From Sphingomonas metalli (GTDB lineage: Bacteria > Pseudomonadota > Alphaproteobacteria > Sphingomonadales > Sphingomonadaceae), in assembly GCF_014641735.1 (NCBI RefSeq), contig NZ_BMIH01000005.1, forward strand, positions 1 through 64,000: DNA of 64,000 nt. Reading direction: 5' to 3'. Positions 3,462 to 28,687 of the stretch are shown here, one piece after another. A program made the translations under genes and the position numbers. The stretch's first letter is position 1. Every line of letters starts with the position of its first letter. A model generated the notes under the pieces. The model saw only the letters and a list, made by a program, of their open reading frames with translations, did not search any database and was not told the DNA's origin.

Positions 3462-4930
3462 GCGGCGAACCGATCGGGCGGGTGGTGATCGTCGGCGGCG
3501 GCACCGCCGGCTGGATGGCGGCGGCCGCCGCCGCGCGTTTCCTCGACGACGGGCAGCGCACGATCACGCTGGTGGAGTCCGACGCGATCGGCACGGTCGG
3601 GGTGGGCGAGGCGACCATCCCGCCGATCCGCGGCTTCAACGCCCGGCTCGGCCTCGACGAAGCGGAGTTCCTGCGCGCCACCGGCGGCACGCCCAAGCTC
3701 GGCATCGAGTTCGTCGGCTGGACCGATGGCACCGACCGCTACTTCCATCCCTTCGGCACCCATGGCCGCGACATCGAGGGGCTGAACTTCCACCAGCTCT
3801 GGCTGAAGCTGCGCGACCGCGAGGGGATCGGCCCGATCGACGACTATGCCATGTCCGCCGTCGCGGCGCGGGCCGGCCGCTTCGCCCCTCCGTCGCCGGA
3901 CCCGCGATCGCCCCTGGCGGGGCTCGAATATGCCTATCATTTCGACGCCGGCCTCTATGCCGCCCTGCTGCGTCGCCATGCCGAGGCGCAGGGCGCGCGG
4001 CGGATCGAAGGCCGGATCGTCGGCGTCGAGCGCGATGCGCGCGGCCATGTCGCGGCGGTACGGCTGGAAGGCGACCGGCGCGTCGCGGGGGACCTGTTCC
4101 TCGACTGTTCGGGCTTTCGCTCGCTCCTTCTCGGCGAGGCGATGGGCGTGCCGTTCGACGACTGGTCGCACTGGTTGCCCTGCGATCGCGCCATCGCCGT
4201 TCCGACCGAACGGCGCGACCCGCTGCTGCCGATGACCCGCGCCACCGCCCATGACGCGGGATGGCAATGGCGGATCCCGCTCCGCCATCGCACCGGCAAC
4301 GGCCATGTCTATGCCAGCGCCTTTGTCGGGCAGGACGAGGCGGAGCGGGTACTGATGGCGCATTGCGACGCGCCGCCCACCGGCCCGGCGCGCCACCTGT
4401 CCTTCACCGCGGGGCGGCGGCAGCGGCTCTGGGCGGGCAACGTCGTGGCGCTCGGCCTGTCCGGCGGCTTTCTGGAGCCGCTCGAATCGACCAGCATCCA
4501 TTTGATCCAGATGGGCATATCGAAGCTGTTCGGGCTGTTCCCCGACCTGCGCTTCAGCGATGTCGAGCGCGACGAATACAACCGCCTGATGGGCGACCAA
4601 TATGCGTCGATCCGCGACTTCATCATCCTGCACTATGCCGCGACCCGGCGCGACGACACGCCCTTCTGGCGCTACGTCCGCACCATGGCTTTGCCCGAAA
4701 CGCTCCGCCGCAAGCTCGCGCTGTTCCGCGAGAAGGGGCGGATCTTCCGCTATGATGACGAGCTGTTCGCGATTCCCAGCTGGGTCGCGGTGATGCTGGG
4801 CCAGGGCATCATGCCCGACGGCTACGACCCGGTCGTGGACGCTCTGGACGAGGGCCGCCTCCTCACCGCGCTGCACCAGATCCGCGCCGGCAACGCCGCC
4901 ATGGCGCAGCAGATGCCGGCGCTGTCGTAG
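3458..4930 (+). CDS. Flavin-dependent tryptophan-halogenase family protein (third copy)
   Basis: 490 residues, predicted active FADH2-dependent halogenase. Motifs seen: GGGTAGW (13-19), GVGEATIP (48-55), catalytic lysine in PKLGIEF at residue 80, GWQWRIP, and EPLESTS with the conserved glutamate. It is closely similar to the first copy throughout, including the shared ATMALP/ATMAVP-type C-terminal region and the GQGI-P-GYDP/GWDP stretch, so the two probably arose by duplication. The ATG overlaps the stop of the middle gene by 4 bases. It is the last gene of the operon and converges on the brnTA pair. Confidence 0.9.
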   Translation: MSGEPIGRVVIVGGGTAGWMAAAAAARFLDDGQRTITLVESDAIGTVGVGEATIPPIRGFNARLGLDEAEFLRATGGTPKLGIEFVGWTDGTDRYFHPFGTHGRDIEGLNFHQLWLKLRDREGIGPIDDYAMSAVAARAGRFAPPSPDPRSPLAGLEYAYHFDAGLYAALLRRHAEAQGARRIEGRIVGVERDARGHVAAVRLEGDRRVAGDLFLDCSGFRSLLLGEAMGVPFDDWSHWLPCDRAIAVPTERRDPLLPMTRATAHDAGWQWRIPLRHRTGNGHVYASAFVGQDEAERVLMAHCDAPPTGPARHLSFTAGRRQRLWAGNVVALGLSGGFLEPLESTSIHLIQMGISKLFGLFPDLRFSDVERDEYNRLMGDQYASIRDFIILHYAATRRDDTPFWRYVRTMALPETLRRKLALFREKGRIFRYDDELFAIPSWVAVMLGQGIMPDGYDPVVDALDEGRLLTALHQIRAGNAAMAQQMPALS

Positions 4931-11072: not shown

Positions 11073-12774
11073 CGCGCCCGCGCTGCCGCTGCTGCCGGTC
11101 GACGACGATCCCGGCGCCTGTTCGGTGCCACGGGGCGGCGGCTGGCGGCCGGGCGCGCGCTGGGCGCAGGCGGAGGGCGCACGCGCCGCGATCGCCGAGG
11201 AGGCGGCGGCGCTGCCGCTCCACCAGCAGCCGACGATGCGCGAACTCGGCCGCCGGTCGGAGGCGGCGGAGCATCCGTTCAAGCGGGCACCCGTCGCTGT
11301 CGCCCGCCAGCCGGTGCCGGCGGCGCCAGTTGTTCACGCGGTGCCGCTGATCCTCGCCGAGGCGATCGGCCAGCGGCAGCTGATCGCCGCCGCCTGCCCG
11401 GCGGCGCTGGCGCTGGGGCTCGTGCCCGGCATGGCGATCACTCAGGCGCGCGCGCTGGTGCCCGATCTCGACATCCGCCCCGCTGATCCAGCGGCGGACG
11501 GGGCGGTGCTCGACGGCCTGACCCTCCACGCCATGCGCTACTGGACCCCGACCGCCGCGCCGAGCGGGGCGGACGGGCTGTGGCTCGACCTGACCGGCGC
11601 GGCGCATCTCCATGGCGGCGAGGCGCGCTTCTGTGCGGGGCTGGTCCGCTTCTGTCGGCGCTTCGGCTATACCGCGCGGGTCGCGGTCGCGGGGACGCCG
11701 GGCGCGGCCCATGCGCTGGCGCGCTACGGGCGCGAGGCGGTGACGCTGGTCCCGGCCGGCGGCGAGGCGCAGGCGATCAGCGCGCTGCCCCCCGCCGCCT
11801 TGCGCCTGACCTCCGACGCGATCACGGCGGCGCAGCGGTTCGGCTTCGACCGGATCGCCGACCTCCTGCCGCTGCCCCGCGGGCCGCTGGCGCGGCGGCT
11901 GGGCCTCGCCAGCGTCACCCGGCTCGACGCGGCGCTCGGCCGGGTGGCGGAGCCGATCGTGCCGGTCGTGCCCGAGGAGACGCCGGTCGCGAAACGCCGC
12001 CTGCTCGAACCGATCGGAACCGCCGAGGCGATCGAGCAGGTGATCGCCGACCTGCTCGCCGACATGATGCTGCTGTTGCAGGCGCGCGGGCGCGGCGTGC
12101 GCACTTTGGTGCTGCTGCTCGAGCGGATCGACGGCAGCGAGCAGCGCCTCGCGATCGGCACCGCGCGCGCGACCCGCGACGCCGCGCATCTCGCCCGCCT
12201 CTTCCACCTGCGCATCGAGCGGATCGAGCCGGGCGACGGCATCGAGACGATGCGCCTCGCCGCGACCCGCACCGATCCGCTGGGGGCGACCGCGGTGGCG
12301 GGCGATCTGACCGGCGAGGCGGCGGTGCCCGACGTCGCGACGCTCGTCGACCAGATCGCCGGCCGGGTCGGCGAGGCGGCGCTGTTCACCGCCGCGCCGG
12401 TCGAGAGCGACGTGCCCGAACGTGCGGTGCGCCGCGCGCCCCCGCTCGCCGCGCCGACCGGCTGGCCGGCCTGGCGACGGCCGGTGCGGCTGCTCGGCCG
12501 GCCCGAGCCGCTGACCGGCGTGCTCGCGCTCCTCCCCGATGCGCCGCCGCGCCGCTTCACCTGGCGGGGGCAGGTCCATGCCGTGGTCGCGGGCGACGGG
12601 CCGGAGCGGATCCATGGCGAATGGTGGCGGCGCGACGGCGAGGTCTGGGCGGTGCGCGACTATTTTCGCGTCGAGGACGAAAGCGGCGCGCGCTTCTGGC
12701 TGTTCCGCCGCGGCGACGGCGTCGAGCCTGCGACCGGCGATCTCAGCTGGTATCTCCACGGGCTGTTCGGCTGA
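10990..12774 (+). CDS. imuB: ImuB, Y-family-like mutasome protein
   Basis: 594 residues. Starts [19 protein letters not shown] like other ImuB proteins and contains [19 protein letters not shown], the relic of the Y-family palm, and [23 protein letters not shown]. ImuB lacks polymerase activity and bridges ImuA, DnaE2 and the beta clamp. The C-terminus [19 protein letters not shown] and [19 protein letters not shown] is the family end motif. An N-terminal insertion of about 70 residues ([18 protein letters not shown] to [12 protein letters not shown]) separates the first strand from the palm. GGAGG precedes ATG 10990. The stop overlaps the dnaE2 start by one base (TGATG). Confidence 0.92.
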
Positions 12775-15700
12775 TGGGCACTTACGTCGAACTTCAGGTG
12801 ACGAGCCATTTCTCGTTCCTGCGCGGTGCTTCGTCCCCTGACGAGCTGTTCGCCGCCGCCGCGTTGCAAGGCCACACCGCGCTCGGCATCGTCGATCGCG
12901 GCAGCGTCGCCGGGCTGGTGCGCGCGTGGGAGGCGCAGAAGGCGACGGGCGTGCGGATGATCGCGGGGGCGCGGGTCGATCTCGACGACGGCCGCGCGCT
13001 GCTGCTCTACCCGACCGACAAGCCCGCCTGGTCGCGGCTGACCCGGCTGCTGACCCTTGGCAAGTCGCGCGCCGGCAAGGGCGGCTGCACGCTCGGCTGG
13101 TCGGACGTCGTTGCTTGGAGCGACGGGCTGGTTGCAATCCTGCTGCCGGATGAGGCGGATGCGGTGACCACGGCGCGCCTCGCCGAATTGCGCACGACCT
13201 TCGGCGCACGCGGCTATTGCGGTCTTACCTTCCGCCGCCGGCCCGACGATGCGCTGCGCCTGCACGACCTCGCCGCACTGGCCGGAGGGGCGGGCGTCCG
13301 CGCTGTCGCCCTTGGTGACATCCTCTATCACGCCCCTGAGGCGCGGCTGTTGCAGGACGTCGTCACCGCGATCCGCGAGAAGTGTACGGTCGATACGCTC
13401 GGCTACCGACGCGAACGCCATGCCGACCGGCACCTCAAATCCCCGGCCGAGATGGAACGGCGCTTCGCCGCCTTCCCCGATGCGATCGCCGCCACCGCCG
13501 CGATCGCGCGTGCCTGCACCTTCGACCTCGGCGAACTCAGCTACCAATATCCGCACGAGCGGGTGGTCGAGGGGCTGACCGCGCAGGGCGCGCTCGAACA
13601 GCTGACCGAGACCGCGGCGGCGCGGATGTTCCCCGACGGCGTGCCGCAAGCCTATCGCGACCAGATCGCGCACGAGCTGAAGCTGATCGGCGAGCTCGGC
13701 TATGCGCCCTATTTTCTCACCGTGAACAGCATCGTCGCCGAGAGCCGGCGCCGCGGCATCCTCTGCCAGGGCCGCGGCTCGGCGGCGAACAGCTGCGTCT
13801 GCTTTGTGCTCGGCATCACCAGCATCGATCCGATCCAGCACGAACTCCTCTTCGAGCGCTTCGTCTCCGGCGAGCGCCGCGAGCCGCCCGATATCGACGT
13901 CGATTTCGAGCATGAGCGGCGCGAGGAGATCATCCAGTGGATCTATGAGACCTATGGCCGCAACCATGCCGCGCTGACCGCCGTCGTCACCCGCTATCGC
14001 GCGCGCGGCGCGGTGCGCGAGGTCGGCAAGGCCCTGGGTCTGCCCGAGGATCTGACCAAGGCGCTCGCCGGCCTCGTCTGGGGCTGGAGCCAGGAGGGCG
14101 TCGGCGAGAAACAGGTCGCGCAGCTCAACCTCAACATGAACGACCGGCGGCTGCGCCTGGCCTTGCAGCTCTCCCGCCAGCTGATCGGCGTGCCCCGCCA
14201 CCTGTCGCAGCATCCCGGCGGCTTCGTGCTGACCCACGACCGGCTCGACGATCTCGTCCCCATCGAACCCGCCGCAATGATCGACCGGCAGGTGATCGAA
14301 TGGGACAAGGACGATATCGACGCGCTGAAATTCATGAAGGTCGATGTGCTCGGCCTCGGCATGCTCGGCTGCATGAACCGCGCCTTCAACCTGCTGGAGG
14401 AAGCCAAAGGCATCCGGGTCAGCATGGCCGACCTGCAGGACGACGACCCGGACGTCTATGCGATGATCCAGAAGGCCGACACGCTCGGCACCTTCCAGAT
14501 CGAGAGCCGCGCGCAGATGTCGATGCTGCCGCGGATGAAGCCCGCTCGCTTCTATGACCTCGTCATCGAGGTCGCGATCGTCCGTCCCGGCCCGATCCAG
14601 GGCGACATGGTCCACCCCTATCTGCGCCGCCGCGAGGGGCGCGAGAAGCCGGACTATCCCCGCCCCGAGCTACGCGCCGTGCTGGAGAAGACGCTGGGCG
14701 TGCCGCTGTTCCAGGAACAGGCGATGAAGGTCGCGATCGTCGGCGCGGGCTTCACCGCGGTCGAGGCCGACCAGCTGCGCCGCGCCATGGCGACCTTCAA
14801 GTTCACCGGCGGGGTCAGCCATTTCTACGACAAGCTGGTCGAGGGGATGGTGTCGCGAGGCTACCCCCGCGATTTCGCCGAGCGGACCTTCAAGCAGATC
14901 GAGGGCTTCGGCTCCTATGGCTTTCCCGAGAGCCACGCCGCCTCCTTCGCCAAGATTGCGTACGCCAGCTGCTGGATGAAGCATCATCATCCCGACGTCT
15001 TCTGCGCCGCGCTCCTCAACGCGCAGCCGATGGGCTTCTACGCCCCGGCGCAGGTCGTCCGTGACGCACGCGAGCACGGCGTCGAGGTGCGCCCCGCCTG
15101 CATCAATGCCAGCCGCTGGGACTGCACGCTGGAGCCGGCCAAGGGCCGCTATCGCGCCGTCCGGCTGGGGCTGCGGCAGGTGCGCGGGCTCGCCAATGCG
15201 CATGGCGCGGCGATCGTCGCGGCACGGGGAGTCGCGCCCTTCCATTCGGTCGAGGAGGTCTGGCGGCGTGCCGGCGTGCCCCGCGCCGCGATCGAACGGC
15301 TCGCCGAGGCCGATGTCTTCCACACGCTCGGCGAGGACCGCCGGCAGGGCTTGTGGAAGGTGAAGGGGCTGGGCGAGGCCCCCCTGCCGCTCTTCGCCGC
15401 CGCCGATGCGCAGGCCGCGGTGTTCAGCCCTGAGGGGCTGGAGCCAGACGTGCCGCTACGCCCGCTGACCGAGGGCCGCGAGGTGGTGGAAGATTATCGC
15501 GCGCTCCAGCTCTCGCTCCGCGCGCATCCGCTCGCCTTCCTGCGGCAGGAGTTCACCCGCCGCGGCATCACCCGCTGCGCCGACCTCGCCCACATCAGGG
15601 ACGGCCGCCATGTCGAGGTCGCCGGCATCATCCTCGTCCGCCAGAAGCCGGGCAGCGCCAAGGGCGTCCTCTTCATCACCATCGAGGACGAGACCGGCAT

Positions 15701-16037
15701 CGCCAACGGCATCCTCTGGCCCGACCGGTTCGAGGCGCAGCGCCGCACCGTCATGTCGGCGGCGATGATCGGGATGAAGGGGCGGGTGCAGAAGGAGGGG
15801 CAGGTGATCCACGTCATTTGCGACCGGATCATCGACCATGGCCCGCTCCTCGCCCAGGTCGGCCAGATGGACTTCCCGCACGCGACCGGCCGTGGCGACG
15901 GCGCGCGCCATGCCGGCAGCCCCGACCGCGGCGACGCCGGCTGGCGCCCCGGCCCTCGCGACAGCTATTGGCCGCCCCACGCCAACGGCATGGATCCGGA
16001 GGCGGTCGTGCGGATCAAGTCCCGCGACTTTCACTGA
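12774..16037 (+). CDS. dnaE2: Error-prone DNA polymerase III alpha-like, DnaE2
   Basis: 1087 residues, the usual DnaE2 length. PHP domain first ([22 protein letters not shown]), then the palm with RGSAANS and [15 protein letters not shown] carrying the catalytic aspartates, the thumb and fingers with [15 protein letters not shown] and [18 protein letters not shown], an OB fold ([21 protein letters not shown]) and the diagnostic DnaE2 end [10 protein letters not shown]. It is the polymerase of the ImuA-ImuB mutasome for translesion synthesis after damage. ATG 12774 shares a base with the imuB stop. Expression follows the LexA box upstream of imuA. Confidence 0.95.
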
Positions 16038-18456: not shown

Positions 18457-19767
18457 CTAATGGCGGGGCAAGGCCGGATCGCCGGTCGCCGGATCGGGCG
18501 GCAGCGCCGCCATGCTTTCGGCGGTGAGCAGGCGCCAGGGCGCCGGCAGATAGTCGGTCGACATGTAGAAATAGAAGGCGCAGCTGCCGTCCGGCCGGTA
18601 GCTGCCCCCCTTGACCAGACCGAGGGCGACCGTTCCCAGGAACACCGGGCCGCCGCTGTCGCCGCCCTTGCAGGCGGGCCCCGCGACCGTCGTCCAGGTC
18701 GGCAGGCACGCGCCGCCGCACAGGTCGCCCGCTGGCGCGAAATCGGTCAGCTCGACGAGCGAGCAGCTATATCCCGTCCGCTCCCCGCGATGGCAGACGA
18801 CGTCGCCCGCCCTGATGCTCGCACGCGACCGCGCCCCGGTGACGGGGCGCAGGATCGATCGATCGGCATCGCCGGCGAAAAACGGTGCGAGCGGCGCGGG
18901 ACTGAGGTTGATCTGGACGTCCTGGTTTCCCCAGCCCCACTGGCCTTCGAACGGCAGGTCCTCGACGATCCCGGCCGCGTCGCGGACTTGCAGCGTGTCC
19001 GGGCAATGGGCTGCGGTCGCGAGCGCGCGGCGCGCACCGTCGGTCACGACGAAGCCGGCGGTACAGACATAGCGGCGCGGGTCGCCCGGCACGCCGCCCA
19101 TCATCCGCATGCCGCCGACGACACCTTCGCCCTGGCCGCCGAAATCGAGTGCCGGTTCCTCGACGACCCGCAGGCGCACCGGCACCCCGGTCATCACCGA
19201 CAGACGATCGCGCAACGCCTGCTGCCCCTCGCGGGCGACATCCGCGCGCGACACGACCGCCACGATCTCGCCGCTCCGCTGGTCGATGCCGAGCCCGGGG
19301 GGGCTGATCAGGCTCGCGCGGATCGCGGCCTGCTGGGTGGAGATCGCCTCCACCATCGCCGCATGGCTCACGCTCGCGCCCACGACATACACCAGGTCGA
19401 TCCGCTGCCCCTCGAGCTCGACCTGCTCCGTCGCGACCGGCTCGGTACCGGTCAGCCGCACGACGATCCGAAAGGCCGGGACATGCTCGACTGCAATCCC
19501 GACAAGCCGATCCGCGAACCGCGCCGCGACGGCATCGGTGATCGGAACGCTGGCCTCCTGCAGGCGCAGCTGGCGCAGCGCCACCGCAGGCGCGATGCCG
19601 AGCCGCATGGCGATGGTTTCGGCGTCGCGATCGAGTCCCGGCTCGACCGGCGGCGCCGCTGGCACCGGCGGCGCGTCGGCACGCTGCGCGAACGCCGGCA
19701 CCGCCGCTATCAACATGGTCGCTGCGGCCGCCGCAGCTTTCAGCCACCCACTCACCCCTCGGATCAT
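18457..19767 (-). CDS. Secreted trypsin-like serine protease with prodomain
   Basis: 436 residues. Signal peptide ending AAVPAFAQ (about residue 28), a pro-region of about 170 residues with alternating strands like alpha-lytic-protease propeptides, then a chymotrypsin-fold domain from about 232. Catalytic triad: His254 in ATAAHCPD, Asp283 in NQDVQI, Ser371 in CKGGDSGGPVF. Paired cysteines nearby suggest disulfides. The start overlaps the methyltransferase stop by 4 bases, so this secreted protease is the last gene of a five-gene coupled operon, an unexpected companion. Substrate unknown. Confidence 0.82.
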   Translation of the reverse strand: MIRGVSGWLKAAAAAATMLIAAVPAFAQRADAPPVPAAPPVEPGLDRDAETIAMRLGIAPAVALRQLRLQEASVPITDAVAARFADRLVGIAVEHVPAFRIVVRLTGTEPVATEQVELEGQRIDLVYVVGASVSHAAMVEAISTQQAAIRASLISPPGLGIDQRSGEIVAVVSRADVAREGQQALRDRLSVMTGVPVRLRVVEEPALDFGGQGEGVVGGMRMMGGVPGDPRRYVCTAGFVVTDGARRALATAAHCPDTLQVRDAAGIVEDLPFEGQWGWGNQDVQINLSPAPLAPFFAGDADRSILRPVTGARSRASIRAGDVVCHRGERTGYSCSLVELTDFAPAGDLCGGACLPTWTTVAGPACKGGDSGGPVFLGTVALGLVKGGSYRPDGSCAFYFYMSTDYLPAPWRLLTAESMAALPPDPATGDPALPRH

Positions 19768-20378
19768 AGCGAGGCGCGGTGGATGCGAGGTGAACGACCG
19801 AATGCGATGGGGCGGCAGGCGATCACGCTCCAGCGCCCGGTACGCCGCACCACGCGCACCTGCCAGCGGCCGCGCGTCGCCCGCAGGAAGGATCGGTGCA
19901 GATGCGCGGCGTGCTGCGCGAAATCGGGATAGTCCACGCGGTGATGCGCCAGCACCAGCACGCCGCCCGGCCGCAGCGCCGCGGCGACGTCGCGGGCGCA
20001 CCGCGCCATGGCGCGGGCGTCGAGATAGTAGAGAAGCTCCGCCACCAGCGCGCTGTCATAGCGCGGGCGCGGCAATCGCGCAGGCACGACCAGCCGCAGC
20101 GCCCGTGCGCGCCTGCGCCCTTCCAGCGCCCGGGTGACGAGCGCAACGCCACTCGCCGTCGCCTCGGTGGCGTCGAGCCGCCGTGCGCGCGGCGCGATCG
20201 CGGCGCTGTTCGAACCATTGCCGGCGGCGATCTCGAGGATGCGCCCCCAGGGACCGGCTCCCATCGCATGCAGGATGGCGCGCCGCTTCAGCGCTTCGTC
20301 GCGATCGGTGAAGGTCGACCAGGGGTCGGCGTTGTCGGCGAACTTGCGCTCGAACCCGGCAAGGGTGATCGGCCTCAC
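19764..20378 (-). CDS. Class I SAM-dependent methyltransferase (NodS-like)
   Basis: 204 residues from GTG 20378. Motif I is ILEIAAGNGSNS (47-58); the acidic strand end is RLDATEAT; then YDSALVAELLYYLD and LRPGGVLVLAHHRVDYPD. The N-terminus (FERKFADNADPWSTFTDRDEALKRRAIL) resembles the NodS-like group that N-methylates deacylated sugars. It overlaps the PIG-L deacetylase by 4 bases, which fits N-deacetylation followed by N-methylation of an amino sugar, though that order is inference. Confidence 0.85.
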   Translation of the reverse strand: MRPITLAGFERKFADNADPWSTFTDRDEALKRRAILHAMGAGPWGRILEIAAGNGSNSAAIAPRARRLDATEATASGVALVTRALEGRRRARALRLVVPARLPRPRYDSALVAELLYYLDARAMARCARDVAAALRPGGVLVLAHHRVDYPDFAQHAAHLHRSFLRATRGRWQVRVVRRTGRWSVIACRPIAFGRSPRIHRASL

Positions 20379-21028
20379 GGGCGCACCTCGAGGAACAGCT
20401 CGCGCGGGCGGGTAAAGGCAGCGATCTGCGCGCGCGTCATCGCGAAGCCGCGGGGATCGTCGGTGATCCGTCCCGATTGGGTGCGATAGCTGCGCACCGC
20501 AAAGCGCTTCGCGAGCCGCTCCTGCGCGGTCAGGCAGAGCGCCCGGGCACCCGCCAGCGGTCGGCCTGCGGGCCAGACGGGATAGGCCAGCCTGCGCAGG
20601 CCGGGCCGGCGCAAGGCCACGATGCAGGCTGCGACGGTGCGATGATCCCGATGGTCGTCACGATCGAAGGGGGCGACGACCAGCATCGCACCGTTATGAC
20701 CGAGCACGCGCGCGAGGCTTCGCCGTGCCGCACCGCTATGAAGGTGGAGTCCCCCGTCCGGCAGGCCGAGAAAGGTCACCGCGCCCGCCGCCACGCCGAC
20801 CCGGCGCAGGACGCGACGGCTCTCGCGCTGCCGCTCCGCCACCAGCCGCGCGCGCGGCCAGCGCGGACTGGACGGATGGGAGGCTGCGCCGTCGGTCACC
20901 ACCACCACCCGCACCGGAACCCCGCGCCGCCGCGCGCGGCTGATCAGGCCATAGGCGCCGATCGCCTCGTCGTCCGGATGCGGCGCGACGACGAGGAGAC
21001 GCGGCGCCGTCGTGAAACCCCGCGTCAC
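20375..21028 (-). CDS. PIG-L family N-deacetylase
   Basis: 217 residues from GTG 21028. Zinc-binding motif APHPDDEAIG at 15-24 and the third ligand region FDRDDHRDHR are clear. The family removes N-acetyl groups from GlcNAc-like sugars (as in mycothiol, bacillithiol or teicoplanin pathways). Overlaps of 4 bases with the genes on both sides show translational coupling. I recall proteins in which PIG-L and a class I methyltransferase are fused, which supports a joint role with the next gene. Substrate unknown. Confidence 0.88.
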   Translation of the reverse strand: MTRGFTTAPRLLVVAPHPDDEAIGAYGLISRARRRGVPVRVVVVTDGAASHPSSPRWPRARLVAERQRESRRVLRRVGVAAGAVTFLGLPDGGLHLHSGAARRSLARVLGHNGAMLVVAPFDRDDHRDHRTVAACIVALRRPGLRRLAYPVWPAGRPLAGARALCLTAQERLAKRFAVRSYRTQSGRITDDPRGFAMTRAQIAAFTRPRELFLEVRP

Positions 21029-21999
21029 AGGCCGGCGGTCAGCAGGCCCGACGCGACCGCCGCGCCCACGTGCATGCGCTGCGCGTCGGGCGCAGGCTGG
21101 CGCAGGTACATCGACAGGTCGGCGATCGTGGCGGCAAGCGGGTGCGCCGCGAACAACGACTGGACGCCCACCGCCTGCTCGGCGAGCTCGATCGCCGGTC
21201 CGCCCGCCGCATAGACGGCGGCGCGGGCGGCGGCGACCAGCGGCAGGCGCGCGGCCTCGTCGCCGAACCAGCCTGCCGCGGCGGTGCGGATCGCGCCTGC
21301 GGCCGCCTCTGCCAGGCCGTACAGGGCGGCGAGGCGGCCGGCCTGGTGCGGATCCCCGGCGCGTCCGGCCGCGACCAGATGCGCGGCACTATGATCGAGC
21401 AGGGCGGCGATGCCCCCCGCCTGCACCGCCGCGAAGCGCAGCGCGCCGCCGCTGAACCACGGCTCGCGCACATAGTCGCCGGGCGCGCCGATCAGGTCGT
21501 CCTCGGCGACGGGCGCGTCCCGCCACCGCACGACATGCGTTTCCGACCGCTGCATCCCGGTGACCCGCCAGAAGGCGCGGTCGATCGACGGCGGCGTGCG
21601 CGCAAGGTCGAGCAGCAGCAGCTGTCGTCCCCCCACGCCGTCGATGCCGATCAGCGCGTGGGACAGCAGGCCCGCGCCACTGGCAAAACTCTTGCCGCCG
21701 GTGAGCCGCATCCCGGTCAGGCCGAGCGGCTCGCCCGCCAGGTCGGCATTCCACACCCCGAACGCCGCTCCGTCCGCCACGGCCGCGGCCACCCGCTCCC
21801 GCTGCGCCGCCGTCCCGTAGCGCAACACGATCTGCACGGCATCGACATGGCCTTCGAACAGGCGGCCGAGCGGCAGGTCGGCGCGACCGGTTTCGAACAG
21901 GAGCCGAAGCAACTGCAAGAGCGCATCCCGGTCGACGGGATCGCCCAGCCCCGGCAGCAACGTCGATCGGGCGGCGATGGCGCGGCGCAGGTCGATCAT
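21025..21999 (-). CDS. Acyl-CoA-dehydrogenase-like protein, short
   Basis: 324 residues, shorter than the usual 380 or so. The middle beta domain is recognisable (AAFGVWNADLAGEPL, LTGGKSFASGAGLLSHALIG) and the C-terminal helices (ALRFAAVQAGGIAALLDHSA, ELAEQAVGVQSLFAAHPL) fit the family. The N-terminal helical domain is reduced and I cannot point to a catalytic glutamate. Coupled by 4-base overlaps between the glycosyltransferase and PIG-L genes. Probably a flavoenzyme acting on a carrier- or sugar-bound group rather than in fatty-acid breakdown. Confidence 0.7.
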   Translation of the reverse strand: MIDLRRAIAARSTLLPGLGDPVDRDALLQLLRLLFETGRADLPLGRLFEGHVDAVQIVLRYGTAAQRERVAAAVADGAAFGVWNADLAGEPLGLTGMRLTGGKSFASGAGLLSHALIGIDGVGGRQLLLLDLARTPPSIDRAFWRVTGMQRSETHVVRWRDAPVAEDDLIGAPGDYVREPWFSGGALRFAAVQAGGIAALLDHSAAHLVAAGRAGDPHQAGRLAALYGLAEAAAGAIRTAAAGWFGDEAARLPLVAAARAAVYAAGGPAIELAEQAVGVQSLFAAHPLAATIADLSMYLRQPAPDAQRMHVGAAVASGLLTAGL

Positions 22000-23018
22000 G
22001 CCGCCCGCCGCCCGGCGGCCATGCTCGCCAATGCGGCCTCGGCCTCCGCGAGCGTCACCTGCCGCATCCCGGCTGGCGGGGTCGGGACGACGCACATGGC
22101 GAAGGCCTCGGCATTGGCGCAGTCCCGCGCCACGCCGCGAACATGGTCGGTAGTGAGACCGATCGCCGCGGCGAGCGATGGATAGTCGCCGCCCGCAAAG
22201 GCGTGGCGGGCCTCGGCGTGGCGGCGATACTGCCAGGCGACGTCCTCGGGATGAGCGACCGCGATCGCGTCGCTGTCGCGATCGAGCGCCCGCAGCGCAC
22301 CGGCGAGGCCCTGCGCGACGCGGCCGAGGCGGCGGTCGGAGGTGTGGACGACGCTGGCGGCGTCGCGCCGCACGCGCAGCCCCGCCCGCGCCGCATCGTC
22401 GACCAGCCGCGCATCCTCGCCGTGCGACAGCGGCAGGAACCCTCCGAGCGTGCGATAGGCGGCGGTCGGAAGGCCGAGATTCGCGCCGCTCGCATGGTGG
22501 TGGCTGGTCGTCGCCTCCCAGGCGACGGGATCGAGCACGCGCCGGATTGCGTGGAGTGCCTCGTAATAGCGTTCGATGCGATCCTGGAGCGGGTTCGGCC
22601 GGGTGACGGTGCGCACTACCTTGCCCGCGACGATATCGGCACGGCGCGCGCCCGCCACCATCGCCTGCAACCAGTCGGGAGCGGGGGTGCTGTCGGCATC
22701 GGTGCTGAGCAGCAGACCCTCTCCCCCCAGTGCCGAGAGGCCGAGGAGCATGGCCGCATGTCGCGCCCGGCCGGCATTGGCACCGGGCTGGACCATGTGT
22801 TCGACCATGACCGGCAGCGATGCGCGCGCGCCATAATCGCGCACGACGTCCGCGCTCGCATCCTCGCAACTGTCGAGCAACAGACAGAGCACCGGTGAGA
22901 CATCCCGCCGGTCGAGCAGCTCCAGCGCCGCGAACAGGCCGGGAAGCGATGCCGCCTCGTCGCGGGCGGGCACGCAGATGGCGACCGGAACCACGCCCGC
23001 GCGCGATTCCGTCACCAC
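21996..23018 (-). CDS. Family 2 glycosyltransferase
   Basis: 340 residues from GTG 23018 (a second GTG follows). GT-A fold signature: VAICVPARDEAASLPGLFAAL, LLLDSCEDASADV, GANAGRARHAAM and the metal-binding TDADSTPAPDW (Asp107, Asp109); the acceptor region has SHGEDARLVDDAARAG. The C-terminal 80 residues are helical and unassigned. First gene of the five-gene operon; the 61-base gap before it must carry the promoter. Acceptor unknown; no membrane segments are evident, so a soluble acceptor is likely. Confidence 0.85.
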   Translation of the reverse strand: MVTESRAGVVPVAICVPARDEAASLPGLFAALELLDRRDVSPVLCLLLDSCEDASADVVRDYGARASLPVMVEHMVQPGANAGRARHAAMLLGLSALGGEGLLLSTDADSTPAPDWLQAMVAGARRADIVAGKVVRTVTRPNPLQDRIERYYEALHAIRRVLDPVAWEATTSHHHASGANLGLPTAAYRTLGGFLPLSHGEDARLVDDAARAGLRVRRDAASVVHTSDRRLGRVAQGLAGALRALDRDSDAIAVAHPEDVAWQYRRHAEARHAFAGGDYPSLAAAIGLTTDHVRGVARDCANAEAFAMCVVPTPPAGMRQVTLAEAEAALASMAAGRRAA

Positions 23019-23079: not shown

Positions 23080-23694
23080 TCAAGCTGCCGATGGCGGGGC
23101 CATGATCTCCCGTGTCGCGGCCGTCCTGCCGATCCGGCGCTCCGCGAACCGGATGGCGCCGTCGCTCAGCCGTTCGGCGACGACGCCAATGGCGATCCCG
23201 GCCAGGACGTCGCCGGCATAGTGGGTGCCGCGCGGAACCTGCACGATCGATACCGCCAGCGCCGCGCCGCGCGCGGCCGTCCGCCGGTCGGGATAGGCCC
23301 GGGCGAAGGCCTCGCCGACGGCCATGGCCCCCGCGCTATGGCCGGAGGGGAAGGAATTGTCCTCGTGCCGGTCGCTCCGCCCCGGCCGCATGTGCGGATC
23401 ATCGCCGCTCTCGGGGCGGGTGCGGTCGATCGTCGCCTTGATCCGGCTCTTGACCCAGGTGGCGAGGCTGTGCGCCGCCAGCATCTTCAGCCCCGTCGCG
23501 GCAAGCCGCCGATCGCGCTGCACCATGCCGACCAGGGTCGTGGCGACGCAGACCGCGCGCATCTGGGGCTGGTCGCCGATCTCGCTCGCTACTCCGAGCA
23601 CCCGGATCGGCCAGCTGTCGCTGCGGGTGTTGACCCTGTCCGTGATCCGGTGATCGGTCTGCTCGACGGCGGTGACCGTGCGTTTGGCGCTCAT
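23080..23694 (-). CDS. PAP2-family phosphatase
   Basis: 204 residues with the three PAP2 motifs: KATIDRTRP, SFPSGHSAGAM and RGTHYAGDVLAG (catalytic histidines in the last two). The family dephosphorylates lipid phosphates such as undecaprenyl or phosphatidic-acid pyrophosphates at the membrane, although this copy has only short hydrophobic stretches. It lies 61 bases upstream of, and on the same strand as, the glycosyltransferase operon, so polyprenyl-phosphate recycling for that pathway is possible. A TATGAT -10-like box (23712-23717, minus strand) stands before the start. Confidence 0.85.
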   Translation of the reverse strand: MSAKRTVTAVEQTDHRITDRVNTRSDSWPIRVLGVASEIGDQPQMRAVCVATTLVGMVQRDRRLAATGLKMLAAHSLATWVKSRIKATIDRTRPESGDDPHMRPGRSDRHEDNSFPSGHSAGAMAVGEAFARAYPDRRTAARGAALAVSIVQVPRGTHYAGDVLAGIAIGVVAERLSDGAIRFAERRIGRTAATREIMAPPSAA

Positions 23695-24676: not shown

Positions 24677-24884
24677 CGCCGCCCAGCAACGGAAAGTTTT
24701 GCATCAGCTTTGCCTGCATCAACCAAGCTCGCTCGAAACGCGGCTATGCTCCTGAAACCGAGGGGACGGTGGACGAGGAACGTCCGCCCGATTTGTGCTG
24801 GCCTCGCTCCTCGGTGTCTTTATTGAGATCGCTGTCCGTCCTCACGGTCGAACAGCGGCGCGGCAGGTGCGGGAGTGGGTCTTG

Positions 24885-26363
24885 ATGGTTTCGAATGACG
24901 CGCGCACGGGCATTGCGGGCCTCGACAATGTGCTTCGGGGCGGCTTCGACCGGTCGCGCTCCTTCCTGCTGGAGGGCAGTCCGGGCACGGGGAAGACGAC
25001 GGTCGCGCTCCAGTTCCTGCTCGCGGGCGTCGCAGAGGGCGAACGCTGCCTCTACGTCACGCTGTCGGAAACCGAGGACGAGCTGCGCGCCTCCGCGGCC
25101 TCGCATGGCTGGGACCTTGCCGGCATCGACCTTTACGAGCTGATCCCGCCCGAAAACCTGCTTGACGAGCATCAGCAGCAGAGCCTCCTCTATTCGTCGG
25201 ACCTGGAACTCGGCGAGACGACGAAGCGCATCTTCGAGGTCTTCGAGCGCGTTCGGCCCGATCGCGTGGTGCTCGACAGCCTCTCCGAGATCCGGCTGCT
25301 GGCGCAAAGCTCGCTCCGCTACCGGCGGCAGATCCTCGCCCTCAAACATTATTTCGCGAAGAGCAGCGCGACGGTGCTGATGCTCGACGACCTCACCACC
25401 GACACCAACGACAAGACCGTTCATTCGGTCGCCCATGGCGTGATCCGCATCGAGGAACTGACGCCCGAATATGGTGCCGAGCGCCGCCGCATCCGCGTCA
25501 TCAAGTACCGCGGACGACGGTTTCGCGGCGGCTTCCATGATGCGACGATCCAGGAAGGCGGCTTCCGCGTTTTCCCGCGCCTGGTGTCGGCCGAGCACAG
25601 GGCTGATTTCGCCCGCGATCTCGTGATCACCGACAAGCCGGAATTCAACGCGCTGCTGGGCGGCGGCATAGAACGCGGGTCGAGCGTCCTGGTGCTTGGG
25701 CCGGCCGGTACCGGCAAGAGCTCCGTCAGCCTGACCTTTGTCCGGACGGCGATCGAACGGGGCGAGCGCGCCGCCATGTTCGTGTTCGACGAGGAAATAA
25801 GTCTGCTCGTCCAGCGTGCGCGCGGCATCGGCATCGATTTGCAGGTGATGATCGACGCCGGCGCGCTCCATTTGGAGCAGGTCGACGCGGCCGAGCTCTC
25901 GCCCGGCGAGTTCGCCGCGCGGGTGCGGGACTGTGTCGAGACGCGCGGCGCTCGGACTGTCGTCATCGACAGCCTCAACGGCTACCAGGCGGCGATGCCG
26001 GGCGAGCAGGCCCTGGTGCTCCACCTGCACGAGATCCTCCAATATCTGAATCGGCAGGGCGTCACGACCTTCCTGACCGTCGCCCAGCACGGGCTGGTCG
26101 GCGACATGCAGACGCCGGTCGACGTCACCTATCTGGCCGACACCGTCATCCTGCTCCGCTATTTCGAGGCGCTGGGCCAGGTCCGCCGGGCGATCTCGAT
26201 CGTCAAGAAGCGAACCGGCCCGCACGAGAACACGATCCGCGAATATCGGATCGATCAGAAGGGCATCACGCTCGGCGCACCGTTGACGAAGTTCCAGGGC
26301 GTGTTGCGCGGCGTGCCGGTCATGCTCGGCGAGGATGGATTGCTGGAGGGCGACGGCGCGTGA
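24885..26363 (+). CDS. KaiC-like double-domain RecA-family ATPase
   Basis: 492 residues, two tandem KaiC domains. Walker A motifs are GSPGTGKTT (31-39) and GPAGTGKSS (272-280); Walker B strands are RVVLDSLSE (Asp131) and TVVIDSLNG (Asp362); the catalytic acidic pairs are LSETEDE and FDEEIS. It is close in size to cyanobacterial KaiC, but no kaiA or kaiB is present. In proteobacteria such proteins are usually coupled to histidine kinases and stress responses. ATG 24885 (MVSNDARTGIAGLDNVLRGG) gives the usual N-terminus; an upstream ATG at 24795 adds 30 residues unlike the family. The stop overlaps the next gene by 4 bases (GTGA). Confidence 0.9.
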   Translation: MVSNDARTGIAGLDNVLRGGFDRSRSFLLEGSPGTGKTTVALQFLLAGVAEGERCLYVTLSETEDELRASAASHGWDLAGIDLYELIPPENLLDEHQQQSLLYSSDLELGETTKRIFEVFERVRPDRVVLDSLSEIRLLAQSSLRYRRQILALKHYFAKSSATVLMLDDLTTDTNDKTVHSVAHGVIRIEELTPEYGAERRRIRVIKYRGRRFRGGFHDATIQEGGFRVFPRLVSAEHRADFARDLVITDKPEFNALLGGGIERGSSVLVLGPAGTGKSSVSLTFVRTAIERGERAAMFVFDEEISLLVQRARGIGIDLQVMIDAGALHLEQVDAAELSPGEFAARVRDCVETRGARTVVIDSLNGYQAAMPGEQALVLHLHEILQYLNRQGVTTFLTVAQHGLVGDMQTPVDVTYLADTVILLRYFEALGQVRRAISIVKKRTGPHENTIREYRIDQKGITLGAPLTKFQGVLRGVPVMLGEDGLLEGDGA

Positions 26364-28687
26364 AGCGGACGACCGTTTCCGAACGGGCACTGGTCCTCGC
26401 CCCGGTCGGGCGCGACGCGGCGATCGCGACCGGCATCCTGCGGGAAGCGGGACTCGAGAACGAGGCCTGCGACACGCTGCCGCTGCTCGTGACGCGGCTG
26501 GACCATGGCGCCGGCCTCGTCGTGATGACCGAGGAGGCGATCACCACGGCCGATCTTGCACCCTTCGCGCGCTGGATCGCCGAGCAGCCGGAATGGTCCG
26601 ACCTCCCGATCATCCTGCTGACCAGCCGCGGCGGCGGACTCGAGCGCAATCCCGCGGCCGCGCGGCATCTCGAGATCCTCGGTAACGTCACCTTCCTCGA
26701 ACGCCCCTTCCACCCGACGACGCTCGTCAGCCTCGTGCGCGCGGCGATCCGGGCGCGGCGGCGCCAATATGATGCGCGCGCACGCCTGCTGGCGCTCCAG
26801 GACAGCGAAACGCGCTACCGCACCCTGTTCGAGAATATCGAAGTCGGCTTCTGCATCATCGAGATGCTGTACGATGCCGAGGGGCGTCCGGTCGACTATC
26901 GCTTTCTCGAGGCGAACCCCGCCTTCGAGCGTCAGGCGGGCTTCGACCCAAGGGGGCGGCGCGTGCGCGAGGTCGTGCCCGAACACGAGCAATTCTGGTT
27001 CGACCTCTACGGCCGCGTCGCGGCGACCCGCGTGGCCGATCGCTGCGAGCAGGGTTCCGCCACGCTCGGCCGCTGGTGGGACGTTCATGCCTTCGCCGTC
27101 GGCGATCCCGGCCAGAACCGCGTCGCGGTGCTGTTCAGCGACATCACCGCGCGCCGGAACGCGGAATTGCGGCTGCAGGAAATGAACGAGACGCTGGCGA
27201 CGCTGGTCGCCACCCGGTCCGCGGAGCGCGACCGATTGTGGAACCTGTCGCAGGACATGCTGGCGCGGGCGAGCTACTCCGGGATGATGTCGGCGGTCAG
27301 TCCGGCCTGGGAATGGGTGCTCGGCTGGAGCCCGGAAGAGCTGCTCTCGCGCGGCTATGCCAGTTTCATGCACCCGGACGATGCCGGACCGACGCTGGCC
27401 GCGATCCAGCGCATGTCGGAGACCGGGCAGCCCACCCGCTTCGAGAACCGCATCGCCATGCGCGACGGGGGATGGAAGTCGATCGAATGGACGGTCGCGC
27501 CCGAGGCGGACAATCTCAACTTCATCGCGATCGGCCGCGACCTCAGCCATATGAAGGCGCGCGAGATCGAACTCGAAGCCGCGCAGGAGGCCCTGCGCCA
27601 GAGCCAGAAGATGGAGGCCATGGGCAGCCTGACCGGCGGCGTCGCGCATGACTTCAACAACCTGCTCACCCCCATCATCGGCTCGCTCGACATGCTCCAC
27701 CGCAAGGGGCTGGGCACGGATCGGGAGAGAAGGCTGATCGACGGCGCGCTCCAGTCGGCGGAGCGGGCCAAGACGCTGGTCCAGCGGCTGCTCGCCTTCG
27801 CGCGCCGGCAGCCGCTCCAGCCGACTGCGGTCGATCTGGCCGAGCTGGTCGGCGGCATGACCGGCCTGATCGGATCGACGCTGGGGCCCGCGATCGACGT
27901 TCGCGTCGCGCTGGATCCCGACCTGCCGCCGGCGCAGGCCGATCCCAACCAGCTCGAGATGGCACTGCTCAATCTGGCCGTGAACGCGCGCGACGCGATG
28001 GACGGCAGCGGCACCCTGACCATCGCCGCCTCGCAGGTCAGCACGCGGGAGGCGACCGCCACCCTTCCCCGCGGCCGTTTCGTGCGGCTCAGCGTGATCG
28101 ACACCGGCAAAGGCATGGACGAGGCCACCCGCCAGCGCGCGATCGAGCCCTTCTTCTCGACCAAGGGGATCGGCAAGGGGACGGGTCTGGGCCTGTCGAT
28201 GGTGCACGGCCTTGCCGCCCAGCTCGGCGGGGCGCTGACGATCGCCAGCGAGCTCGGCAAGGGCACGAGCATCGAATTGTGGCTGCCCGTCAGCACCGGA
28301 ACGGTGGCGGCCGATCCCGAACTCGCCGAGCGCGAGACCACCCACAAGGGCAACGGGGTCGCATTGCTGGTCGACGACGAGGATCTCGTGCGGATGAGCA
28401 CCGCGCACATGCTGGGCGATCTGGGCTACAAGGTCGTCGAGGCGCGCTCGGCCGAAGAGGCCTTGCAGATGCTCCGCGACGGCTTCGAACCCGATGTGGT
28501 CGTGACCGATCACCTGATGCCCGGCCTGACCGGCGCCGAGCTGGTCCACATCCTGCACGACGAACACCCCGCATTGAGGACGCTGATCGTCTCCGGCTAT
28601 GCGGAAGCCGACGGCATCGACCCGGACATGCCGCGCCTCACCAAGCCCTTCCGTAGCGCCGACCTGGCGATGAGCCTGTCTGGCTGA
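26360..28687 (+). CDS. Hybrid PAS sensor histidine kinase with degenerate N-terminal receiver
   Basis: 775 residues. Order: a receiver-like fold (about 8-130; LPIILLTSRGGG and FLERPFHP are retained but the phosphoacceptor strand reads LVVMTEEA, no Asp), a PAS region (about 155-265), a second PAS (about 290-400), a dimerisation domain with [16 protein letters not shown] (phospho-His), an ATPase domain (NAVNARDAM-type N box, [20 protein letters not shown]) and a C-terminal receiver (LLVDDEDLVRM, VVVTDHLMPG with phosphoacceptor Asp, TKPF). Starts with GTG overlapping the KaiC-like stop, so the two act together. No transmembrane segment, hence a cytosolic sensor. Confidence 0.88.
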   Translation: MKRTTVSERALVLAPVGRDAAIATGILREAGLENEACDTLPLLVTRLDHGAGLVVMTEEAITTADLAPFARWIAEQPEWSDLPIILLTSRGGGLERNPAAARHLEILGNVTFLERPFHPTTLVSLVRAAIRARRRQYDARARLLALQDSETRYRTLFENIEVGFCIIEMLYDAEGRPVDYRFLEANPAFERQAGFDPRGRRVREVVPEHEQFWFDLYGRVAATRVADRCEQGSATLGRWWDVHAFAVGDPGQNRVAVLFSDITARRNAELRLQEMNETLATLVATRSAERDRLWNLSQDMLARASYSGMMSAVSPAWEWVLGWSPEELLSRGYASFMHPDDAGPTLAAIQRMSETGQPTRFENRIAMRDGGWKSIEWTVAPEADNLNFIAIGRDLSHMKAREIELEAAQEALRQSQKMEAMGSLTGGVAHDFNNLLTPIIGSLDMLHRKGLGTDRERRLIDGALQSAERAKTLVQRLLAFARRQPLQPTAVDLAELVGGMTGLIGSTLGPAIDVRVALDPDLPPAQADPNQLEMALLNLAVNARDAMDGSGTLTIAASQVSTREATATLPRGRFVRLSVIDTGKGMDEATRQRAIEPFFSTKGIGKGTGLGLSMVHGLAAQLGGALTIASELGKGTSIELWLPVSTGTVAADPELAERETTHKGNGVALLVDDEDLVRMSTAHMLGDLGYKVVEARSAEEALQMLRDGFEPDVVVTDHLMPGLTGAELVHILHDEHPALRTLIVSGYAEADGIDPDMPRLTKPFRSADLAMSLSG

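Follow-up and report, generated by a model that had tools for sequence, protein, structure and literature searches.

A conserved module of an acyl-CoA dehydrogenase-fold protein, a PIG-L deacetylase and a NodS-like methyltransferase in an operon of Sphingomonas metalli

We analyzed a 64,000-nucleotide window of Sphingomonas metalli DNA (assembly GCF_014641735.1, contig NZ_BMIH01000005.1, positions 1 to 64,000), in which five minus-strand genes (18457-23018) encode a glycosyltransferase (GT), a protein with the acyl-CoA dehydrogenase (ACAD) fold, a PIG-L deacetylase, a methyltransferase (MT) and a protease. The ACAD-like flavoenzyme, PIG-L and NodS-like MT genes form a conserved core; a GT2 gene is usually near this module, yet is its most variable member, and the protease is an independent gene. 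The module is a new combination of known enzyme families. Neither a description of it nor a characterized pathway with this enzyme set was found in the open-licence literature searched, in agreement with the original prediction, made from the DNA sequence, that no known pathway matches the set. In our favored explanation, to which we give about even odds (~50%), the module makes an N-methylated, oxidized amino-sugar glycoside connected with stress survival.

Results and Discussion

Organization of the cassette

The operon is located on contig C5 of a 3.86 Mb genome. The four enzyme genes of the cassette are:

21996..23018, minus strand: GT2-type glycosyltransferase; 340 amino acids, GTG start, DXD motif at D107/D109, no clear transmembrane segment seen
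21025..21999, minus strand: ACAD-fold protein, predicted to be flavoenzyme-like; 324 amino acids, short at the N-terminus, with Gln301 where the medium-chain acyl-CoA dehydrogenase (MCAD) type has its catalytic Glu
20375..21028, minus strand: PIG-L (LmbE) family deacetylase; 217 amino acids, motifs PHPDDE (16-21) and HRDH (126-129)
19764..20378, minus strand: S-adenosylmethionine-dependent methyltransferase; 204 amino acids, distantly NodS-like

All four junctions of the five-gene run are 4-bp stop/start overlaps: ATGA for GT/ACAD (21999-21996), GTGA for ACAD/PIG-L (21028-21025), GTGA for PIG-L/MT (20378-20375) and ATGA for MT/protease (19767-19764). Reading these junctions bore out the prediction of five genes coupled in this way throughout. 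Overlaps of this kind may lead to production of the proteins in fixed proportion, as the original prediction proposed. The nearest named relatives of the ACAD-like protein are from Sphingomonas, with 81% identity in S. phyllosphaerae FA2 and 85% in a Sphingomonas metagenome-assembled genome (MAG). A phage origin of the cassette was rejected, as phages gave only two weak half-length matches.

Three genes form a conserved core

Co-occurrence was measured in 398 genomes, an even sample of the phylum, with E-value cut-offs of 1e-25 (ACAD-like), 1e-30 (PIG-L) and 1e-35 (MT). The ACAD-like gene was present in 34 genomes, or about one in twelve, nearly always with its partners; PIG-L was present in 36 and MT in 39. 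ACAD-like and PIG-L genes shared 32 genomes, ACAD-like and MT genes also shared 32, and all three were found in 30 (Fisher tests that ignore kinship: 2e-40 for ACAD-like/PIG-L and 5e-38 for ACAD-like/MT). The MT gene lies no more than 3 kb from the ACAD-like gene in 32/32 genomes and PIG-L in 29/32, the three exceptions (G503, G623 and G610) having PIG-L elsewhere in the genome. Loci with ACAD-like and MT genes and no PIG-L seemed at first to be counter-examples to the module, a view given up when PIG-L turned up elsewhere in two such genomes. It had been stated beforehand that a failure of the enzymes to co-occur would undo the idea of a four-enzyme unit. No such failure was seen for ACAD-like, PIG-L and MT, and the idea stands for these three, while the GT varies among loci.

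The remaining genomes were all counted against co-occurrence. The ACAD-like gene was without PIG-L in G721 and G784, the former having a weak PIG-L-like frame (7e-12) near it, and without MT in G549 and G742. Four genomes had PIG-L only (G567, G603, G689 and G852) and seven had MT without the ACAD-like gene. Among these seven (G510, G526, G546, G597, G642, G739 and G789), three were viewed in context: in G510 and G546 the MT is part of a large frame in a different glycan context, and in G789 it stands alone. The second MT copy of one cassette genome, G062, is also a large MT-bearing frame in another glycan context.

Two further observations concern gene copies. Frames of ~1000 amino acids with a NodS-like methyltransferase region are found in glycan-type loci (L258:5379-8381, L259:4950-8003 and L260:4531-7707), and two of these three also have a GT-like region; these frames, together with the companion loci and the neighbor genes around some module copies described below, come from rough GC-based calls, several of them in the wrong frame. 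Four genomes of one genus (G705, G750, G772 and G804) carry a second PIG-L gene, whose start is 1.6-2.2 kb from that of the first (L168 ~13179-13823). In L168 a shorter GT2 follows the MT.

The module extends beyond the phylum

A search of named genomes with the ACAD-like protein gave 392 confirmed relatives, and we examined the best 80 of the 392. These come from Sphingomonas, Methylobacterium, other Alphaproteobacteria, Salinisphaera, Puniceicoccaceae and Hymenobacter. All four genes (GT, ACAD-like, PIG-L and MT) were found in 55/80 stretches; three lacked PIG-L only, one had ACAD-like, PIG-L and MT genes, and one had ACAD-like and PIG-L genes. Contig ends and unlinked PIG-L genes explain part of the incomplete loci. 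Within 196 genomes of the window's order, the ACAD-like search yielded 16 matches, those in G027, G128 and G181 being weak and partial, and most of the strong loci adjoin GT, PIG-L and MT genes.

Gene coupling was compared between 34 Sphingomonas-type loci, one of them from a Caulobacteraceae MAG and another from a record labelled Bacillus, and the loci outside this group. Within the group a 4-bp overlap was present at 34/34 GT-ACAD junctions, at 30/30 measured ACAD-PIG-L junctions (four further loci were not measurable by script) and at 31/34 PIG-L-MT junctions, a recurrence beyond chance. Outside it, the corresponding counts were 0/14, 15/23 and 18/22. Ten pairs (4, 4 and 2) that the script placed more than 300 bp from each other were omitted from the counts. 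Thus, the last three genes are widely coupled, while coupling of the GT is lineage-specific. A 4-bp ACAD-MT overlap was also present at 10/13 junctions where PIG-L was not found. Fused PIG-L/MT forms, which the original prediction had proposed to look for, were absent from the 56 PIG-L-MT junctions measured. In the record labelled Bacillus (L024, Bacillus sp. 2B10) the Sphingomonas-type cassette has 66% identity, and this genome is probably mislabelled or contaminated.

Plasmid-borne relatives occur in Deinococcus, Rubrobacter, Nostoc, Bradyrhizobium, Sulfitobacter and Komagataeibacter, and relatives of the module are also found in Hymenobacter and Puniceicoccaceae. In D. radiodurans a helicase gene stands between the MT and the rest of the module, while a Methylobacterium plasmid (L131) has the ACAD-like gene alone of the four. 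On a Rubrobacter plasmid (L132:7889-12540) the ACAD-like gene comes after a polysaccharide deacetylase gene (Pfam 4e-26) and before a NodS-type MT, an extra pyridine-nucleotide-type (FAD/NAD-type) oxidoreductase and a GT; PIG-L was not found in this stretch. This arrangement supports deacetylation as the step. Additionally, the ACAD-like proteins of D. radiodurans (L129:8546-10885) and D. gobiensis (L136:7579-9927) are fusions with ~420 further amino acids at the N-terminus, a stretch that has no clear Pfam family and weak glycosidase-like matches.

An ACAD fold without the catalytic glutamate

Pfam matched only the ACAD N-domain of the flavoenzyme-like protein, below the family cut-off (0.0033). 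An AlphaFold2 model (predicted local distance difference test, pLDDT, 95.1) has the ACAD fold. A profile search of the PDB returned DszC first (7e-15), followed by true ACADs (from 5e-12) and then the nitrososynthases DnmZ (2e-10) and KijD3 (4e-9).

The MCAD-type Glu column, set by alignment with two true ACADs that the window's genome also encodes, holds Gln in 37/37 aligned members, and the column of the isovaleryl-CoA dehydrogenase (IVD)-type Glu holds Ala in the window protein. Across 132 loci, several of which are one stretch met twice, the MCAD-type position is Gln in 132/132 and the IVD-type position is Ala in 105, Gly in 17, Val in 5 and Ile in 5. These positions led us to reject a classical acyl-CoA dehydrogenase, a distinction that fold comparison alone does not make. 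That the protein is a true acyl-CoA or acyl-carrier dehydrogenase, with the module tailoring the acyl chain of a glycolipid, would fit its structural tie with acyl-CoA dehydrogenases and a Foldseek match to the carrier-tethered cysteine dehydrogenase ColB1; given the residues at both Glu positions, however, we consider this improbable. The Gln-for-Glu proteins are apparently a new branch of the ACAD fold and might represent a new subgroup of oxidases or oxygenases.

PIG-L, methyltransferase and glycosyltransferase

The deacetylase belongs to Pfam PF02585 (6e-26), and its active-site residues H17, D19, D20, H126 and H129 are present in 103/103 loci with a PIG-L profile match. Its top PDB profile match is diacetylchitobiose deacetylase (2e-21), with BshB-, teicoplanin-type and MshB deacetylases among the others. 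The top NCBIfam matches, BshB1 (2e-11) and BshB2 (2e-8), are both under cut-off, BshB1 scoring 43.8 bits against the equivalog level of 182.5.

All family matches of the MT are also under cut-off, including a weak match to NodS NF041650 (3e-6; 26.9 bits, short of the equivalog level of 300). Deinococcus and Rubrobacter members pass the Pfam NodS threshold whereas the window MT does not. By profile, its PDB relatives are 4isc (2e-46), NodS (3ofj, 7e-29) and then phosphoethanolamine N-methyltransferases. NodS is the N-methyltransferase of deacetylated chitooligosaccharides.

The GT matches GT2 PF00535 (2e-6), and its model (pLDDT 94.0) has a GT-A fold with DXD and GT-A-type matches. The matches include chondroitin polymerase, TarS and PcManGT; ArnC is also among the profile relatives, and EpsD shows weak similarity among the NCBIfam matches. 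The DXD Asp is conserved in 81/82 loci, with one gap. No clear membrane segment was seen in any of the four cassette proteins.

As predicted from profile relatives, these proteins fit the glycosyl transfer, N-deacetylation, N-methylation and flavin oxidation first put forward for them. The designation ACAD-like holds for the fold and fails for the catalytic Glu of acyl-CoA dehydrogenases.

Companion genes and possible rival products

Several module copies lie beside alpha-amylase-family and CBM48 genes (TreZ, TreY and GlgX by eye), OtsA, OtsB, Ku and LigD, as identified by Pfam. Ku/LigD are near the module on the Bradyrhizobium plasmid and catalase in Sulfitobacter, with EgtB/EgtD in L184 and DUF2383/DUF892 in L186. 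We defined a stress set of nine families (TreZ, TreY, GlgX, DUF2934, OtsA, OtsB, Ku, LigD and KatE), which was present in 7/20 phylum stretches, 12/80 named stretches and 2/9 plasmid stretches. Controls were 60 stretches at author-picked places in 16 of the 20 phylum genomes, and 2/60 carried the set (p = 0.0006 against the 7/20). Without the three discovery loci the count was 4/17 against 2/60 (p = 0.019). The named set also differed from these controls (p = 0.02), although the named genomes themselves gave none.

The EcfG promoter motif of the general stress regulon is GGAAC-N-GTT. In alphaproteobacterial loci, the DNA upstream of the GT or ACAD-like gene had nine such sites, where the density over whole stretches predicts 1.8. 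This ratio overstates the enrichment, since promoters differ from random DNA and two of the nine loci are almost the same.

Further glycosyltransferase genes accompany the module. Among 109 stretches with an ACAD-like gene, a MurG-like gene was found at 7 loci, a GT4 gene at 12 and a sucrose-phosphate-synthase/phosphatase (SPS)-like gene at 5, compared with 0/60 controls. The MurG-like gene was present in 15/34 genomes with an ACAD-like gene and 0/46 without (p = 3e-7), the 46 including small, incomplete genomes and other families. Within the window's order (mostly its family) the counts were 10/13 and 4/57 (p = 6e-7). The MurG-like companion is thus linked with the module and not exclusive to it, because it also occurs in those 4/57 genomes. 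The SPS-like gene was present in 10/34 genomes with and 2/46 without (p = 0.0025), and in 8/9 genomes with both companions they are no more than 3 kb apart. In the window's genome they are on the same contig as the cassette, 95 kb from it:

L271:6520-13441 (G000 C5 ~112.5-119.4 kb), one strand: GT2, GT4, MurG-like and SPS/phosphatase-like genes, the last two at C5:116-119 kb

Genes for non-reducing disaccharide synthesis (TreYZ, OtsAB and SPS), a post hoc grouping, lie near 8/20 phylum stretches and 0/60 controls. In S. melonis Fr1, a run of genes of glycosyltransferase type (Sphme2DRAFT 3505-3509) depends on EcfG (PMC6599016) and is a candidate counterpart of the SPS/MurG-like/GT4 companion locus.

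These companions also bear on other possible products. The module might decorate a surface polysaccharide, lipopolysaccharide or a polyprenyl- or lipid-linked sugar, to which the GT2 would add an amino sugar that is then deacetylated, methylated and oxidized. PcManGT and ArnC, relatives of the GT, use lipid-phosphate acceptors. The EpsD similarity, the MurG-like and GT4 companions, a UDP-galactopyranose mutase gene close to the module of D. gobiensis and a PAP2 gene upstream in the window point the same way. However, the annotated neighborhoods viewed name no flippase, polymerase or ligase (no search was aimed at them), the four proteins have no clear membrane segment and PAP2 is not conserved. 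On balance, decoration of the envelope seems somewhat unlikely.

A glucosaminyl low-molecular-weight redox metabolite akin to bacillithiol or mycothiol, and N-methylated in addition, would account for the combination of GT and PIG-L and the BshB1 and BshB2 matches. The companion GT4 scores weakly with BshA/MshA models, and catalase and ergothioneine genes lie near some copies. Yet the cassette GT is a GT2 and not a GT4, the scores are far under equivalog cut-offs, and the annotated neighborhoods name neither a BshC-like nor an MshC-like ligase (a genome-wide search was not made). We regard such a product as decidedly improbable.

A proposed amino-sugar glycoside pathway

In the favored explanation, that of an N-methylated and oxidized amino-sugar glycoside, the GT would move an N-acylated amino sugar, such as N-acetylglucosamine, onto an acceptor. 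PIG-L would strip the acyl group and the MT would N-methylate the freed amine. The flavoprotein, with its predicted cofactor and without the acyl-CoA dehydrogenase base, would then oxidize the product by N- or C-oxygenation in the style of DszC and the nitrososynthases. Both the substrates and the order of these steps are proposed from the enzyme families. Further glycosyltransferases (MurG-like, GT4 and SPS-like) may contribute in some lineages. The enzymes look soluble, their genes in some copies stand near those for trehalose, sucrose, catalase and non-homologous end-joining, and together they could make a protective or signalling sugar; the neighborhoods suggest a role in stress.

Several observations weigh against this explanation. 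The stress families were picked after some loci had shown them, and 13/20 phylum loci are without any of the nine. No EcfG-like site (GGAAC-N-GTT) was found upstream of the window operon, and general-stress sigma control of this operon was rejected on that ground. True ACADs outrank DnmZ and KijD3 in the profile search and are level with DszC in structural comparison (Z ~30-31). The PIG-L family also cleaves amides other than those of sugars, and enzymes with a NodS-like fold carry out other methylations. Additionally, the GT profile was within ~1.5 kb of only 9/30 phylum loci, a count that covers these flanks alone, and among the named loci 12/80 had ACAD-like and MT genes only and 8/80 the ACAD-like gene only.

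A more specific version, which we put forward as speculative and unlikely, is an undescribed class of stress metabolites in several phyla that include desiccation- and radiation-tolerant bacteria. These would be amino-sugar glycosides, N-methylated and N- or C-oxidized, with sucrose or trehalose, both non-reducing disaccharides, as the scaffold. Here the scaffold would come from the SPS/phosphatase-like and MurG-like proteins 95 kb away.

The protease and PAP2 genes are neighbors

Two further genes flank the four enzyme genes on the same strand:

18457..19767, minus strand: S1-type (alpha-lytic-like) protease; secretion-signal-like start and N-terminal extension, overlaps MT
23080..23694, minus strand: PAP2-family phosphatase; 61 bp upstream of the operon, PAP2 match 1e-13

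The protease is similar to alpha-lytic protease (2pfe, 1e-7; 3ure, 2e-7) and has the triad motifs H254/D283/S371. The 4-bp MT/protease overlap would fit a single functional unit of all five genes, for example a system for processing a precursor peptide. None of the other loci scanned shows such an overlap. Of 295 genomes of the genus, 169 (counting the window's own) have protease homologues, some of them weak, and these 169 include G039, G125 and G185, which lack the ACAD-like gene; in G132 the two genes are 257 kb apart. The protease profile matched 1/98 loci scanned, the window's own, and 0/80 named stretches, and cassette genes were beside 0/29 other protease loci (of more found; flanks of ~1.5 kb or less). 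A single five-gene unit is therefore highly improbable as a function and is refuted as a conserved unit, although a local co-regulation effect is possible. The protease was rejected as a pathway member and is a local bystander, contrary to its inclusion in the functional set by the original prediction. PAP2 does lie just upstream on the same strand as had been noted, but the other 97 loci scanned have no homologue, and it was likewise rejected as a member.

Elsewhere in the window, judged by eye from translations, a KaiC-like ATPase frame is followed by a hybrid sensor kinase frame (24795-28687), and the end of another frame (11580-16037) resembles an error-prone DnaE2-type polymerase.

Comparison with known systems

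Some module copies adjoin TreZ-, TreY- and GlgX-like genes, as in the treYZ-glgX trehalose/alpha-glucan stress islands of Pseudomonas (PMC8982409, PMC8084333). In contrast to the module, the terms acyl-CoA and methyltransferase occur 0 times in the main texts of both papers, and the PIG-L term 0 times in the main text of PMC8084333.

The flavoenzyme-like protein shares with DszC and the sugar nitrososynthases (DnmZ, KijD3) the lack of an ACAD-type Glu in the window protein and a top profile match to DszC. It differs in identity (~17-23%) and in its shorter length, and its oxygenase activity is a prediction.

A GT paired with a PIG-L deacetylase recalls bacillithiol and mycothiol synthesis (BshA/BshB, MshA/MshB). 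The cassette departs from these pathways in its GT2 in place of a GT4, in scores far under equivalog level and in having no cysteine ligase among the annotated neighbors.

Nod factor tailoring (NodC/NodB/NodS) has the same logic of glycosyl transfer, N-deacetylation and N-methylation, and the cassette MT is a distant NodS relative (3ofj, 7e-29). The polysaccharide deacetylase of the Rubrobacter stretch adds to the likeness, its Pfam family being the one that includes NodB. Unlike that system, the cassette has PIG-L (so do other copies read), a soluble-looking GT2, an extra flavoenzyme and an MT under the NodS equivalog level. NodA and NodC were not named among annotated neighbors (L135 has no annotation, and no search was aimed at them).

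Lastly, the fifth gene of the window operon, outside the module, resembles alpha-lytic protease (S1) in its chymotrypsin-type domain, triad motifs and secretion-signal-like N-terminus.

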